In this document: positions 4,542-40,273 of the stretch, piece by piece | Layout: each line of letters begins with the position of its first letter | How positions within the stretch are numbered: the stretch's first letter is position 1 | Origin: Bacteroidota bacterium | GTDB lineage: Bacteria; Bacteroidota; Bacteroidia; Chitinophagales; LD1 | Assembly: GCA_026391075.1 (NCBI GenBank) | Contig: JAPLES010000034.1 | Coordinates: 1 to 47,333 of the forward strand | Length of the DNA: 47,333 nt | Direction: 5' to 3' | Position numbers and translations under genes: made by a program | Notes under the pieces: generated by a model | What the model was told of the DNA's origin: nothing | Seen by the model: the letters and a program-made list of their open reading frames with translations, nothing else | Databases searched by the model: none

Positions 4542-4574
4542 AGACCCTATAGGTTTTAGAAACCTATAGGGTCT
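4542..4574. terminator. Perfect 15-bp inverted repeat, terminator or dispersed palindrome
   Basis: AGACCCTATAGGTTT at 4542-4556 is exactly complementary to AAACCTATAGGGTCT at 4560-4574, with a 3-nt loop. It lies 8 bp after the ruvB stop. Neither side has a strong T run. The core CCTATAGG is itself palindromic. A close relative is found at 33162-33194, so this may be a repeat family that also terminates transcription. Confidence 0.65.
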
Positions 4575-21600: not shown

Positions 21601-22785
21601 ATGAAAAAACAATTTCTCTTTATTATGCTTTCGGGTTTGGTTTTTTTCTCTCATGCGCAAAGTTCAGAGTTAGATTCGCTTCTAAAAATTTTAAAAACAG
21701 CACCGGAGGATACTAATAAGCTAAAACTTTTGGAGGACATATCCGATATTGCCCCTGATGGCGAATGGCAGAAATACAGCAATACGCTCGGTAAATTGGC
21801 CGAGAAATTTATGACCAACGTTAACCCTGCCATTAAACTGGCCGGGAAAAAATATTATTCGGTTTATCTAAATAATAAGGCCTACGGTTTTGCCGAAATG
21901 GGAGATTATAGAAGCGCTTTCGACTATTACGAACGTTGCTTAAAATTAAATCAGGAAACCGGTAATAAGATTAATTCGGGTGTAGTGTTAAGCAGTATAG
22001 GGGCTATTTACGAGCGGCAAAACGATGCAGTAAACGCGGAAAAAAAATACAAACTCGCTTTACAATTACAGGAAGAAATCGGCAATGCTAAAGATGTGGT
22101 AGCTACTTTAGATAACATAGGTGTTATCTATTTTAAAAATAGACTCTGGGATAGCGCCATGATTTTTTATACAAAAGCATTAGATATTGTTGAACGTAAC
22201 AACTACAGGAACCACAATTCAACCTACTTGTTTTGCAATATAGGTGACTTAATGGAGCAAGTTGACCGTACAGATAAAGCTATCGAATATTATCAGCGGG
22301 CCGTTCAAATGTCAGGCGAAATAGGAGATAAATTGGGTAAGGCCAGAGGGCTAAATGGCTTAGCTAATGTTTACCTAAACAAAGGTGAAACTGCACAAGC
22401 CGCAGATTGCGCTAAGCAGGCTATAGTGCTGGCCATTAATACAAACACGGTAAATCTTACGCTGAAATCGGCCGGTTTATTGAAACAGATTTATACTAAA
22501 CAAGGTAAGTTTAAAGATGCGCTGGAAATGTATCAGTTGGAAATTGCAAGCCGCGATAGTATAGCTGGTAAAGAAAATCAGAAAGCTGTAATTCAGCATC
22601 AGTTTAAGTACGAGTACGATGTAAAGGAAGCTATCGCTAAAGCCGAACAAGAAAAGAAAGACGGTATTGCAAAAGCAGAATTAAGGCGGCAGAAAGTTCA
22701 GAAGATGGCTTTACTAGGTGGCTTTGGCGTAATGGTTTTGTTTGCTGGAGTATTTTTTCGTCAGCGTAATAAAATTGGCAGATAG
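21601..22785 (+). CDS. TPR-repeat membrane protein, N-terminal part of an interrupted adenylate cyclase
   Basis: 394 residues: signal peptide (MKKQFLFIMLSGLVFFSHAQ), about six tetratricopeptide repeats (residues ~70-330; e.g. YYERCLKLNQETGNKINSG, LDNIGVIYFKNRLWDSAMIF), a charged coiled coil and one membrane helix (MALLGGFGVMVLFAGVFF), followed by the juxtamembrane FRQRNKIGR. The frame then meets TAG at 22783-22785, and immediately after it the same frame continues with KKRSDELLLNILPEEV and a full cyclase domain. Periplasmic TPR sensor - helix - cytoplasmic cyclase is the normal architecture of this family, so the ORF is truncated by one nonsense codon. Confidence 0.85.
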   Translation: MKKQFLFIMLSGLVFFSHAQSSELDSLLKILKTAPEDTNKLKLLEDISDIAPDGEWQKYSNTLGKLAEKFMTNVNPAIKLAGKKYYSVYLNNKAYGFAEMGDYRSAFDYYERCLKLNQETGNKINSGVVLSSIGAIYERQNDAVNAEKKYKLALQLQEEIGNAKDVVATLDNIGVIYFKNRLWDSAMIFYTKALDIVERNNYRNHNSTYLFCNIGDLMEQVDRTDKAIEYYQRAVQMSGEIGDKLGKARGLNGLANVYLNKGETAQAADCAKQAIVLAINTNTVNLTLKSAGLLKQIYTKQGKFKDALEMYQLEIASRDSIAGKENQKAVIQHQFKYEYDVKEAIAKAEQEKKDGIAKAELRRQKVQKMALLGGFGVMVLFAGVFFRQRNKIGR

Positions 22786-23436
22786 AAAAAACGTAGTGAT
22801 GAATTACTTCTCAATATTCTGCCAGAAGAAGTTACTGAAGAACTGAAAGCAAAAGGAAGTGCCGAAGCCAAACTTTTCGAAAACGTAACTGTAATTTTCA
22901 CCGACTTCAAAAACTTTACCGGCATTAGCGAAAAACTTTCTCCGCATGATTTGGTGAATGAATTGCACGAATGCTTTTCGGCATTCGATAACATTATGCA
23001 CAAATACGGCATCGAAAAAATAAAATCAATGGGCGATTCGTATATGGCGGTGAGCGGTTTGCCAACTTCCAATCCAAACCATGCTGAGGAAATGGTAAAT
23101 GCAGCTATTGAAATACGCGAGTTTATGCTTAACCGAAAAAAAACAAATCCTGAAACTTTTGAAGCGAGAATCGGAATTCACTCCGGTCATGTTGTTGCCG
23201 GAATTGTAGGCGTAAAGAAGTTCGCTTATGATATTTGGGGTGATACGGTGAACACAGCCGCACGAATGGAACAAAATAGTGAAGGTGGGAAAATTAATAT
23301 TTCGCAAACCACTTATGAATTGCTTAATAGAAGTTCCACTTCTTTAAGAAGTGGAACTTCTCCATTCACTTTTGAATACCGAGGAGAAATTGAAGCGAAG
23401 AATAAAGGGAAATTGAAAATGTATTTTGTAGAATAA
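22786..23436 (+). pseudogene. Class III adenylate cyclase domain cut off by in-frame TAG
   Basis: Directly continuous with 21601-22785 in the same frame: KKRSDELLLNILPEEVTEEL linker, then the cyclase fold with VIFTDFKNFTG (first metal Asp), EKIKSMGDSYMAVSG (adenine-selecting Lys and second metal Asp), FAYDIWGDTVNTAARMEQN (Asp selecting ATP, transition-state Asn and Arg). All catalytic positions are intact, so loss is recent, or the TAG is read through, or the domain is translated separately; the first in-frame ATG is 22951, inside the domain and after the first metal Asp, so internal initiation would give an inactive fragment. A palindromic segment is in frame at 23329-23361. Confidence 0.78.
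23329..23361. repeat. In-frame palindrome in cyclase copy 1
   Basis: AGAAGTTCCACTTC (23329-23342) and GAAGTGGAACTTCT (23348-23361) are perfect complements, 14 bp, around TTTAA. It encodes RSSTSLRSGTS between the conserved YELL and FEYRGEI of the cyclase end, where family members I recall have no such segment. Confidence 0.85.
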
Positions 23437-23454
23437 GCTTAGCTTCCCAGACCC

Positions 23455-25371
23455 ATGACCATTCCCGAAGAAATAGAACAACTCAAAATTAAGCTGCAGA
23501 AAACTGTTGATGAAAGAGACCAAGCGGAAATTCTTGTTGAAATTTTAAGGAAACATATCTCAGTAAACAGCACAGATACGCAACCTCATATTGAGTATCT
23601 GTTACAACTGGCAGAAAAACTGAATGAGCCACTATATCATGCATGGGGGCATCAGCATCTTGCGACACTTCAACGCAACAAAGGTGAATTTGAAACTTCT
23701 TTAACTTCAGATGGGAAAGCACTAAGATTGTTCGAACAGATAAAGAGCAAACAAGGCATTGCATCTTCTTACAATAACATTGGGCTTACTTATGAGCAAC
23801 AAGGCGATTACCCCGAAGCACTTAAAAATTATTTCATCTCTTTAAAACTGAGAAAAGAAACAGAAGATAAACTGAGTGTTGCCGCGTCCTATAACAACAT
23901 TGGGAACATCTATAAAAGGCAGGGCAATTTTCCTGAAGCACTCAAAAATCATTTCGCCTCAGTAAAACTCAGAAAAGAAATAGGGAATACAGGCGGCATT
24001 GCAGATTCGTATACCAATATCGGTATTGTTTACAAAATACAAGGCAATTTTGAGGAGTCACTTAAAAATCATTTCACATCACTAAAACTCAGTGAGGAAA
24101 TCGGAAACAAAAGAAGCATTGCCGCTTCTTACATCAATATTGGTGGAACTTACGAAGCTCAAGGTAATTATACAGAAGCATTGGAAAATATTTTCAAAGC
24201 CCTGCATATATTTCAGGCAATAGACCACAAGCTTGGTGTTGCCCGGTCTTATAGCAACATCGCACTTATTTATTACCGTCAACAAAATTACACTGAAGCA
24301 CTGAAATATTATTTTGACTCTTTAGCTTTAAGTGAACAAATAGGCGACAACCCGGGTATTTCTATTTTCCATAACAACATTGGCAATGTATACTCTAAGC
24401 TAGGTAATTACCCTGAAGCATTCAACCACCAGTTACTGGCTTTAAATAAAGCCGCAGCAATAGGTTATAAAGAAATAATTAAAGAATCATCCCTTTCACT
24501 TACCTCTATTTATAAAGCTGCCGGTGATTTTGAAAATGCTTTGAAGTATTATGAAAACTATCATCAAGTGGAAAGTGAGATGATTGGCGAAAAAGCAAAA
24601 GGTCAATTGACTCATCTGAACTTTCACCACAACATGGAGCAGAAAGAAAAAGATTTGGAAATTGAACAGCTGCGCAATGTAGAGTTGAAGAAGGAAAGAG
24701 ACCGCTCCGAGAATTTGCTGCTCAACATCCTACCAGCAGAAGTTGCCGAAGAGCTAAAAGCAAAAGGCACAGCCGATGCAAAATTGTTTAATGATGTAAC
24801 AGTTCTCTTCACCGACTTCACCGACTTCACCATCATTAGCGAAAAGCTTTCGCCACAGCAGTTAGTGGATGAACTGCACGATTGCTTTTCTGCCTTCGAT
24901 AAAATTTGTGAGAAGTACAGCATCGAAAAAATAAAAACCGTAGGCGATGCTTACCTCGCTGTTTCAGGTTTGCCATTAGCCAATCCAAATCATGCAGGCG
25001 ATATGGTGAATGCCGCTTTAGAAATAAACCAGTTTATTGCTAAGCGTATTAAAGAAAGAGAATCTAAAGCCCTCTCATTCGGAGAGGGTTTGGGAGAGGT
25101 GAGGATTGGCATTCACTCCGGATCTGTAGTTGCAGGTATTGTGGGCATAAAGAAATTTGCTTACGATATTTGGGGCGATACGGTGAACACAGCCGCGCGT
25201 ATGGAGCAAAACAGCGAAGCCGGTAAAATCAATATCTCGCAAACCACTTATGAGTTGCTTAATAGAAATTCCACTTCTTTAAGAAGTGGAATTTCTCCAT
25301 TCACTTTCGAATACCGCGGAGAGATTGAAGCGAAGAATAAGGGCAAGTTGAAAATGTATTTTGTCAATTAG
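23455..25371 (+). CDS. Soluble TPR - class III adenylate cyclase
   Basis: 638 residues, no leader or membrane segment. Residues ~60-370 carry about eight TPRs of the Kinesin-light-chain-like NNIG-Y--QG-Y-EAL type, then a coiled coil (MEQKEKDLEIEQLRNVELKK) and a signalling-helix linker (RSENLLLNILPAEVAEEL). The cyclase domain has Asp454 (LFTDFTDFT) and Asp498 (KTVGDAY) for metals, Lys494 and Asp571 (FAYDIWG) for adenine choice, Asn578 and Arg582 (NTAARMEQ) for transition-state binding: a full set for cAMP synthesis. Two repeat-derived segments are in frame (25065-25104 and 25264-25296). It follows the interrupted paralog by 18 bp. Input is probably a protein partner bound by the TPRs. Confidence 0.93.
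   Translation: MTIPEEIEQLKIKLQKTVDERDQAEILVEILRKHISVNSTDTQPHIEYLLQLAEKLNEPLYHAWGHQHLATLQRNKGEFETSLTSDGKALRLFEQIKSKQGIASSYNNIGLTYEQQGDYPEALKNYFISLKLRKETEDKLSVAASYNNIGNIYKRQGNFPEALKNHFASVKLRKEIGNTGGIADSYTNIGIVYKIQGNFEESLKNHFTSLKLSEEIGNKRSIAASYINIGGTYEAQGNYTEALENIFKALHIFQAIDHKLGVARSYSNIALIYYRQQNYTEALKYYFDSLALSEQIGDNPGISIFHNNIGNVYSKLGNYPEAFNHQLLALNKAAAIGYKEIIKESSLSLTSIYKAAGDFENALKYYENYHQVESEMIGEKAKGQLTHLNFHHNMEQKEKDLEIEQLRNVELKKERDRSENLLLNILPAEVAEELKAKGTADAKLFNDVTVLFTDFTDFTIISEKLSPQQLVDELHDCFSAFDKICEKYSIEKIKTVGDAYLAVSGLPLANPNHAGDMVNAALEINQFIAKRIKERESKALSFGEGLGEVRIGIHSGSVVAGIVGIKKFAYDIWGDTVNTAARMEQNSEAGKINISQTTYELLNRNSTSLRSGISPFTFEYRGEIEAKNKGKLKMYFVN
25065..25104. repeat. Dispersed palindromic repeat inserted in frame in cyclase copy 2
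   Basis: CCCTCTC (25070-25076) pairs with GAGAGGG (25082-25088), followed by TTTGGGAGAGGTGAGG. It encodes KALSFGEGLGEVR between IAKRIKERES and IGIHSG. The paralog has a shorter unrelated segment here. A near copy lies between genes at 38349-38387. Confidence 0.85.
25264..25296. repeat. In-frame palindrome in cyclase copy 2
   Basis: AGAAATTCCACTTC (25264-25277) and GAAGTGGAATTTCT (25283-25296), 14 bp perfect around TTTAA. Compared with copy 1 the left arm has G to A and the right arm the matching C to T, so pairing is kept. Encodes RNSTSLRSGIS. Confidence 0.85.
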
Positions 25372-30698: not shown

Positions 30699-30731
30699 AA
30701 AAGCCCTTCGCAGTTTTTGCGAAGGGCTTTT
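30699..30731. terminator. Bidirectional rho-independent terminator
   Basis: AAAAGCCCTTCGCA (30699-30712) is exactly complementary to TGCGAAGGGCTTTT (30718-30731); A and T runs flank the stem. It serves the convergent methyltransferase and LamG genes. Confidence 0.92.
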
Positions 30732-33161: not shown

Positions 33162-33194
33162 AAACCTCATAGGTTTTTAAAACCTATGAGGTTT
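33162..33194. terminator. Perfect 15-bp inverted repeat, bidirectional terminator-like
   Basis: AAACCTCATAGGTTT (33162-33176) and AAACCTATGAGGTTT (33180-33194) pair perfectly around TTA, filling the gap between convergent queD and the EEP gene. Same design as 4542-4574. Confidence 0.75.
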
Positions 33195-38387: not shown

Positions 38388-40273
38388 TATTTCTGTATTA
38401 CCTGAAATGCTGTTCGTCTGTTCTGCTGATGTTCTTCTTCTGTCTTCGCACCTTTAATTACAGGTTGTGAAAACCCGAAACCTTTTGCCGACAATCTTCC
38501 TCCGCTTATTCCTTTTAAAATTAAATAGTCAACCACGCTCTTCGCTCTGTTTTCTGAAAGCAGATTGTTGTATTCGGGCTTGCCGCGCTCATCGGTGTGT
38601 GAATTAATTTGCACAAATGCATCAGGAGTATCTTCCAGAATTTTTACCAGCTTATCTAATTCAGGTTTCGAAGTTTCGCGCAACACAAAACTATCGAGGT
38701 CATAATAGATGTTGTCAATTTTGATTTCTGTTTTAGGAATTCGCTTGATAGAGAAATCATAATTGTGTCCATTAGCTTTCGAAAATTCTTTCGAATATTT
38801 TTCTCCTTGCGTAGTCAACTTGCGCGAATCACCGAAGTAGCCGGGGCTGAGCACATTTATTTTATAGTCCTTGTCCTGGTTGAGCGTGAAACTGTATTCA
38901 CCGTTTGCATTAGTGGTTGTTGTGTCAGTTGTTCCGTCAGCAGCAGTAAGTATAATTGTTGCTCCTGCAACTGGTGTGTTGTTCGGGTCATCGGTAATTC
39001 TTCCTTTCACCGTAAGATTTACAGGAGTAAGGAAGAAGGAATAAATATCATCACCACCTGCACCATCTTTTCTGTTCGAAGAAAAATATCCGCTCTTTCC
39101 ATCGGCTTTAAACACCAACGAAAAATCATCGGCACTGCTGTTGAAAGGCGATTTCAAATTAGCAGGTTTACTCCATGTGCCGTTTGCATAAACAGAACTG
39201 AACAAATCCAATCCACCAAAACCGGTGTGCCCATCACTCGAAAAACACAAAACAGAATCGTGCATCACCGGAAACATTTCATCAAATTCTGTATTGATAA
39301 TATTTCCTGCGTTCACCGGGTCGCTCCAGCTATCACCGCTTCTGCGCATATACCAGATATCTGCTCCACCACTACCGCCTGCCATTTTGCTGACGAAAAA
39401 AAGCTGATTGCCATCGGCAGAAATTGCAGGCTGCTCCATATCCGATTTCTGAGCAGATGAAAGCGAAACAGGTTTCACATTGCTCCATAAATTTGCCGCA
39501 TCATCATAATCTGCCTGATAAATTTTGCAGAAATTATCTTTTGTTTTTCCATCGTTGCAACGCGTAAAATATCCTGTCTTTGTTTTTCCGCAATACGAAA
39601 GAAATTCATCGTTGGCAATTGAACTCAGCGATTCCACCTTCTTCGCTTTGCTCCATGTTTTATCTTCTTTGAAATACGCAGTTTGATAAAAATCAGCGAA
39701 GCCCTGTCCGTCATACGAATAAACATTATCTTCTTTATCTTCAATTCTTGATGAAGTAAAAACCAATAAATATTTCACGAGCACAACTGCGTAGTCGTTG
39801 AAAGTGGTGTTTAATTCTTTTTCGTTTTTAAATGTATAAAGCCATTCATCGGGTGCTACGCTCGTAGCAAATTTGCAGTTAGCAAGAAGGCGTGTGGCAT
39901 CTTTGTCATTCGGTTGAGAAGCCAGAAAACTTTCAAATTTCTTTTGTGCTTCATCATACTTCGCTTGCTTCATCAAAATATTTCCCTGATGAAAAAGATA
40001 ATTCGGATTAGGATAACCTTCGCCTTTCGCGCGGTCGTATCCATTTATCGCTTCATCCCATTTGCCGGTGTACCGATAGCATTCAGCTACATTAAAATTG
40101 ATTTGAGCCAAATCAATTTTCTTCTCGGGTTTCTTTAAAACTTTTTGATACAAGTCTAATGCAGCAGTGTATTGCTTATTGTTGAATGCATGCGTAGCCA
40201 ATTCAAGATTGGTTTGTGCCGTTGACAATTCAACCGCAAAAAGTAAAAGCAGAACAGATAAATATGTTTTCAT
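38387..40273 (-). CDS. PorE-like OmpA-family protein (TPR, PD40, CarboxypepD_reg, OmpA)
   Basis: 628 residues, signal peptide (MKTYLSVLLLLFAVELSTAQ). In order: TPR region (residues ~20-140: ALDLYQKVLKK, AINGYDRAKGEGYPNPNYLF), WD40/PD40-like propeller (~190-430: MEQPAISADGNQLFFVSKM, FSSDGHTGFGGLDLFSS, GKSGYFSSNRKDGAGGDDIY), carboxypeptidase-regulatory domain (VTVKGRITDDPNNTPVAGAT), and OmpA peptidoglycan-binding domain (NIYYDLDSFVLRETSK, INSHTDERGKPEYN, NRRTAFQV). This layout matches PorE, the periplasmic T9SS protein that ties the translocon to peptidoglycan. It starts 8 bp after the giant adhesin stop and likely forms one operon with it and the PorP/SprF gene. Confidence 0.92.
   Translation of the reverse strand: MKTYLSVLLLLFAVELSTAQTNLELATHAFNNKQYTAALDLYQKVLKKPEKKIDLAQINFNVAECYRYTGKWDEAINGYDRAKGEGYPNPNYLFHQGNILMKQAKYDEAQKKFESFLASQPNDKDATRLLANCKFATSVAPDEWLYTFKNEKELNTTFNDYAVVLVKYLLVFTSSRIEDKEDNVYSYDGQGFADFYQTAYFKEDKTWSKAKKVESLSSIANDEFLSYCGKTKTGYFTRCNDGKTKDNFCKIYQADYDDAANLWSNVKPVSLSSAQKSDMEQPAISADGNQLFFVSKMAGGSGGADIWYMRRSGDSWSDPVNAGNIINTEFDEMFPVMHDSVLCFSSDGHTGFGGLDLFSSVYANGTWSKPANLKSPFNSSADDFSLVFKADGKSGYFSSNRKDGAGGDDIYSFFLTPVNLTVKGRITDDPNNTPVAGATIILTAADGTTDTTTTNANGEYSFTLNQDKDYKINVLSPGYFGDSRKLTTQGEKYSKEFSKANGHNYDFSIKRIPKTEIKIDNIYYDLDSFVLRETSKPELDKLVKILEDTPDAFVQINSHTDERGKPEYNNLLSENRAKSVVDYLILKGISGGRLSAKGFGFSQPVIKGAKTEEEHQQNRRTAFQVIQK

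Follow-up and report, generated by a model that had tools for sequence, protein, structure and literature searches.

Two class III nucleotide cyclase genes lie side by side in the 47,333-nucleotide stretch of Bacteroidota DNA analyzed here (the window, contig C77 of its own genome, G000), and each carries the same palindrome within its reading frame. How did one palindrome come to lie in two protein-coding genes, and why do its two copies differ by a pair of matching changes? The source genome comprises 3.6 Mb in 91 contigs and is 98% complete. The first-pass annotation had described two class III cyclase genes, and PF00211 does match both: cyclase 1 at 22789..23436 on the + strand (E 7.1e-57) and cyclase 2, which also has TPR repeats, at 23455..25371 on the + strand (PF00211 E 8.7e-55, TPR_12 E 1.1e-71). 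The frame of cyclase 1 is cut, however, by an in-frame TAG at 22783-22785, which splits the cyclase domain from an upstream TPR/membrane part. The orthologue of cyclase 1 in the relative G015 is a single open frame with E at the TAG position, and one TAG is likewise found in cyclases of G000:C20 and G017:C12. Identity between cyclases 1 and 2 is highest at the palindrome, reaching 0.95 in a 20-codon block, against 0.82-0.88 in the adjoining blocks and 0.53-0.80 in seven blocks upstream. An Rfam scan of the window gave 0 matches.

The palindrome in cyclase 1 (23329..23361) has the sequence AGAAGTTCCACTTCTT-T-AAGAAGTGGAACTTCT, with perfect 16-bp arms around a 1-nt centre, and encodes RSSTSLRSGTS. 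The copy in cyclase 2 (25264..25296) is also a perfect palindrome, encodes RNSTSLRSGIS, and differs from the first by G to A at position 5 and C to T at the paired position 29, so that the base pair is kept. The first-pass annotation had placed both copies exactly and had correctly read the paired difference and its effect on the protein (S to N, T to I); only its description of 14-bp arms around TTTAA must be corrected. We term this 33-bp sequence family A. It spans 11 codons and, as read off the sequence, is open in 4 of the 6 frames. Altogether the window contains six palindromes with arms of at least 10 bp: two of family A, two of a second family, B, and two that are terminator-like (30699-30731 and 40094-40120). 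Five sequences of equal length generated by a first-order Markov model had 0-1 such palindromes, with a longest arm of 10.

Family A is dispersed. Its core was found at 14 places in G000 when up to 3 mismatches were allowed, whereas a reversed control pattern had 0 matches there, and 11 of the 14 copies are perfect palindromes. Among 60 genomes, matches were found in 8: its own, 6 of 17 relatives within its genus, and 1 of 42 further genomes. The last is a single match with 3 mismatches and stands at chance level, since the reversed control pattern gave one match each in 2 of these 42 genomes. A search of contigs representing one genome per species (84,980 species) found 13 stretches with an exact match to the core, 10 of them from Bacteroidota MAGs and 3 from Caballeronia; the flanks of the Caballeronia stretches are not palindromic, so these are probably chance matches. 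We therefore describe family A as found mainly in its own Bacteroidota genus rather than confined to it, since three of the ten Bacteroidota stretches (L054, L058, L060) come from MAGs that may belong to other genera. A covariance model of the family had matches at E <=0.01 in 12 of 18 genomes of the genus, including its own, and none in the remaining 6; the weaker of these matches may include some unrelated hairpins.

In size and number the family resembles REP elements, which are palindromes of 20-40 bp in many copies, although its 14 copies in G000 are few compared with the more than 100 per genome quoted in one abstract for usual REPs. The ends are AG..CT in 34 of 52 rows of 33 bases, and inspection of ends and flanks revealed no GTAG or CGTC end tag. 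The flanks themselves have only A-rich positions -4..-2 and T or C at -1. Target-site duplications of 4-6 nt were seen at 0 of 50 copies and of 3 nt at 1 of 50. At the site shared by G004:C19 and G000 L011, the two flanks are split in a third genome between contigs G001:C7 (L163) and G001:C70 (L165), and on each of these contigs the homology stops at a family A palindrome, reflecting either a rearrangement or two insertions.

Six of the 14 copies in G000 are in frame within long open frames, namely those of cyclases 1 and 2, LipB, methionyl-tRNA formyltransferase (Fmt), IcmF and a TonB-dependent receptor; around the other eight, no open frame exceeds 71 aa. With copies in frame in such unrelated genes, the likeness to Rickettsia palindromic elements drawn in the first-pass annotation is apt. 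Copies within genes of relatives include those in LipB of G004 and in Fmt and two cyclases of G015, and QueA of G009 has a weaker copy of 31 bp. A comparison of cyclase orthologues, which had been proposed as a check, indicates that the segment is an insertion: it is present in 4 of the 32 cyclase domains read from the genus, and cyclases without it read, for example, YELVKDKFxCEYRGEI. Empty orthologous sites were found for the cyclase, the TonB receptor, LipB, Fmt and IcmF. The net gain of filled over empty sites is 30 bases in the cyclase (compared with its tandem neighbour in G015) and in the TonB receptor, 3 to 10 codons in LipB depending on the relative, 2 codons in Fmt (compared with G004) and 3 in IcmF. 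Since none of these gains is exactly 33 bp, the insertion junctions cannot be placed, and some host sequence was probably lost or altered at insertion or afterwards.

The empty orthologues place the sites within genes in loops whose length varies. For the cyclase this placement rests on alignment with a solved adenylyl cyclase, which has a gap at the insert, ahead of the FxYRG strand; a model of this domain of cyclase 2 by AlphaFold had a pLDDT of 37.5 and was set aside. The same LipB loop holds a different insert, made of short tandem units, in G015 lipB (L236). In a tree of the cyclases, those with the element do not form one resolved clade; one insertion followed by conversion and several separate insertions would both be compatible with the tree.

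REP-associated tyrosine transposases (RAYTs) are HUH/Y1 single-strand transposases. In two sister species a RAYT gene is flanked on both sides by family A, a link that the first-pass annotation had overlooked. A 205-aa RAYT gene in G017:C19 has a family A palindrome at 15 bp on one side and another at 36 bp on the other, and in G015:C39 a RAYT 72% identical to it is bracketed by two copies that share a subtype (AGATA..TATCT), with two more family A copies outside these brackets. The assignment as RAYT comes from NCBIfam NF047646 (E 1.4e-16, 60.7 bits, which is below the 80-bit cut-off); a Pfam search gave 0 matches at 0.001. The assignment also draws on the HUH motif NHFH and the Y motif YIHANP, which both proteins have; a RAYT of G000:C33 has NHFH and YIHQNP.

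A total of 19 RAYT match rows came from 10 genomes of the genus. Palindromes with arms of at least 9 bp lie on both sides of seven RAYT genes (G017:C19, G015:C39, G008:C270, G012:C621, G000:C33, G009:C2 and G006:C53, the last accounting for two of the 19 rows). An eighth gene, in G016:C277, is truncated by the contig start and has one palindrome inside its open frame and one behind it; for the remaining 10 rows, at most one such palindrome lies within about 300 bp. Each of the bracketed genes has palindromes of its own sequence, except that G017:C19 and G015:C39 share family A; most of these palindromes are 33 bp long, and many have AG..CT ends. The RAYT genes of G009 (L190 1682-1714) and G016 (L182 33-65) also hold their own 33-bp palindrome in the open frame, and that of G016 is followed by an extra copy of an arm. 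No close family A RAYT was found in G000, where the best match is 40% identical and bracketed by another palindrome; the family A RAYT of this genome may have been lost or left unassembled. The RAYTs present in G000 were rejected as the source of family A, 0 of four Y1 matches lying beside a family A palindrome. The pattern used for the bracket of G000:C33, from which the second bracket of that gene is too divergent, occurs at two places in G000, both on contig C33.

The copies of family A covary strongly, which bears out the check across copies that had been suggested for the palindrome. We aligned 41 of the 68 places (29 distinct sequences), comprising all 14 from G000 plus 27 more that are exactly 33 bases long; 96.6% of the cells are paired, and changes on both sides occur in 8 of the 16 pairs and in 30 cells. 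Shuffles of this alignment averaged 3.6 pairs and 6.6 cells, with 0 of 500 reaching the observed values, and controls with a slid structure gave 1-3 pairs. The 27 places outside the alignment were left out by the analyst's choice, 16 for their other lengths and 11 as weaker or terminator-like rows of 33 bases; the terminator-like weak matches at G004:C115:7209 and its G000:C54 orthologue are not in the alignment. When all 52 rows of 33 bases (40 distinct) are taken, 583 of the 640 cells are Watson-Crick pairs, 24 are G-T and 33 are mismatched, and 23 of the 52 are perfect palindromes. Departures from the consensus in the 40 distinct rows number 56 paired and 57 other; paired departures would be rare by chance alone. 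A nested-hairpin (REPIN-like) arrangement of the arms, AGAAGT-TCC-ACTTCT, was considered and rejected because the inner 6-bp stems show no covariation: 0 pairs have both sides changed, and 85.3% of cells are paired, which is not above shuffles.

Family B has the size and design of family A and another sequence. It occurs at 12 places in G000, of which the two in the window are intergenic (4542..4574) and between two convergent ORFs (33162..33194). Its copies covary like those of family A, with changes on both sides in 5 of 16 pairs and 9 cells. Inspection of positions among the listed family B places revealed no pair suggestive of a RAYT between them. Along G007:C15:175053-176257, palindromes of family B follow one another at intervals of 294 bp, in the manner of a repeated domain. 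A different dispersed repeat, CCCTCTCATTCGGAGAGGGTTTGGGAGAGG, lies in frame in cyclase 2 (25070..25099, + strand), is missing from cyclase 1, and occurs at 18 places in G000 at up to 3 mismatches. A 400-kb census also gave a further palindrome family, CTGAGCTTGTCGAAG..CTTCGACAAGCTCAG (L032 5428-5463, L040 17750-17785 and L045 10215-10262).

Changes in place were read from ten comparisons of homologous sites, with homology judged from the flanks. Fmt and the pair G004:C115/G015:C4 were left out for their unequal lengths; the G015:C12 cyclase, which has one further unpaired change, is not among the ten. Two comparisons show a paired double change in arms that are otherwise the same (cyclases 1 and 2, which are paralogues, and G004:C1 with G000 L014), three have unchanged arms (LipB, L009 and C89/C31), and five show unpaired changes, nine as listed and eight distinct, one being common to two comparisons. 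For C1/L014 and C89/C31, the left flanks are homologous near the element only, or nowhere. In place, unpaired single changes thus outnumber paired double ones by about 8 to 2. Unpaired changes as frequent as paired ones, which the first-pass annotation had named as telling against its own proposal, are therefore found in part, both in place and, at 57 to 56, among the rows. Where two arm changes have occurred, the odds that the second compensates the first are about 1/31 x 1/3, and compensation is seen in 2 of 3 such comparisons; only one of the two cases is independent, because the locus was singled out on account of the cyclase pair.

The clearest sign of arm copying is a rebuilt copy in Fmt of G015. 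Compared with G000 (...CTTCTTCAAGAAGTGGAACTTCTGAA), it has 15 extra bases, which provide a new right arm, GGAACTTTT, complementary to its altered left arm, AAAAGTTCC; the old end, CTTCT, remains behind. The same arrangement might instead stem from a newly inserted copy of an AAAAG subtype. An extra arm-like stretch also lies beside the element in G015:C4, as it does at the palindrome of G016:C277. The earlier suggestion that one arm is copied to the other thus gains a rebuilt copy, while the pairing of changes in place speaks for it less strongly. Pressure on the hairpin itself, which the first-pass annotation had offered as the other implication of the paired change, need not follow.

The dispersal of family A, its covariation, its in-frame insertion and its bracketing of RAYT genes in two relatives are observed directly; its mobility, and the action of a RAYT on its palindrome, we infer from sequence. 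The reading that we favor, at a probability of about 0.72, is that a REP-like family A was spread by a RAYT, is tolerated in protein loops, and has its arms re-matched by template switching. The cyclase palindrome is a copy of this dispersed 33-bp element, and a RAYT would have spread the copies in trans, presumably recognizing the hairpin of 16-bp arms. Copies that landed in frame in variable protein loops would be tolerated and retained. A mutation in one arm would at times be copied to the opposite arm, most simply by a polymerase switching templates across the hairpin, as the one rebuilt copy and the two paired changes in place suggest. Such copying would produce coupled amino-acid changes, for example S to N together with T to I in cyclase 2.

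The strong covariation of the long stem would also be expected if the palindromes were selected as RNA or DNA hairpins, such as terminators, mRNA stabilizers or protein-binding sites, with the paired changes being compensatory, and the family B copy at 33162-33194 does lie between convergent ORFs. However, terminators and processing sites would do harm in the reading frames of unrelated genes that hold 6 of the 14 copies, copies in place decay through unpaired changes, and 6 of the 18 genomes of the genus have no match to the model. We consider selection on the hairpin improbable and "compensatory" in this sense the weaker reading, and for the in-frame copies we reject the terminator reading. 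We think still less of growth at each site from chance precursors by quasi-palindrome correction, with no mobile element at all. Passages of PMC6649704 and PMC8604942 do have template switching turning imperfect palindromes perfect, and the loop lengths of Fmt and IcmF are little changed, but the identical 33 letters stand at unrelated sites; because independent growth would not yield one sequence, such an origin is very unlikely for family A.

A much stronger competitor, which we regard as plausible though against the odds, is that the paired variants are old subtypes, each of which arose a single time in a master copy before spreading. The difference between the cyclases would then reflect an exchange of subtypes, by conversion or replacement, rather than change in place. 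Subtypes do recur at several sites (AGAAA..TTTCT also in G016:C186; ATAAG..CTTAT in G004, G015 and G001; AGACG..CGTCT in G017), the tree does not resolve the element-bearing cyclases as a single clade, and a peak of identity at the palindrome between cyclases 1 and 2 is expected from conversion. On the other hand, the G015 Fmt copy with its extra arm looks local, and so does the pair G004:C1/L014. Even with old subtypes, arm copying is needed somewhere, because a master copy must itself gain paired changes.

Several features of the favored reading, a RAYT-spread element with re-matched arms, have counterparts in known systems. REPtrons (RAYT/TnpAREP) resemble family A in having small palindromes that flank a Y1/HUH transposase gene, with copies elsewhere. 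In passages of PMC6006769, subclass 2.6 is mostly from Bacteroidetes, has atypical structures without GT[AG]G, and holds RAYT group 5 sequences; its structures are called weaker, whereas the palindromes of family A span 33 bp and have as many as 16 paired bases. Judged by motifs, the family A RAYT (NHFH, YIHANP) falls outside this subclass, which has NH[LIV]H and YIH[QN]NP. The double-foot REPs of subclass 2.4, in the same passages, share with family A their symmetric ends, and an in-frame palindrome within the RAYT, as in that subclass, is seen also in G009:C2 and G016:C277; the ends of subclass 2.4 are GT[AG]G..C[TC]AC, whereas those of family A are often AG..CT.

Intragenic REPs, with which passages of PMC3733652 count RPE-4/6 of Rickettsia as intragenic CGTC repeats, are like family A palindromic repeats in genes of unrelated function, and the same passages consider such repeats perhaps neutral in flexible parts of proteins. 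More than half of the inserts described there are dimers or grouped repeats, unlike the single palindrome of family A, which is short, perfect, 11 codons long and free of a GTAG or CGTC tag. As to arm copying, passages of PMC6649704 describe coding inverted repeats in Nematomorpha mitochondria whose arms are kept alike, with template switching proposed, and passages of PMC8604942 infer template switching in coding inverted repeats of yeast, where it alters amino acids; as described there, and unlike family A, these repeats do not belong to a single dispersed element that has a transposase linked to it. Intragenic REPs, atypical RAYT structures in Bacteroidetes and arm copying are thus already in print separately. 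In the open-licence literature we found no published account of family A, and searches with the letter strings of the repeats found no bacterial-repeat paper by title.

The lack of a GTAG or CGTC tag marks family A as a new variant among REP/RAYT elements. With it, these systems gain a symmetric type without a tag in the Bacteroidota, whose RAYT partners have been called atypical. Palindromic DNA is here seen settled in frame in conserved enzymes, and the orthologous sites allow arm copying to be weighed against ordinary mutation. A further proposal, which is speculative and in our judgment doubtful, is that tag-free, fully symmetric 33-bp RAYT elements act as in-frame inserters of 11-codon loops, with arm copying steering host proteins. 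If this were true, a single mutation in the element would regularly lead to two linked amino-acid changes in LipB, Fmt and the signalling cyclases, and, because the arms copy each other, the symmetry of the DNA rather than the protein would steer the evolution of such conserved proteins.
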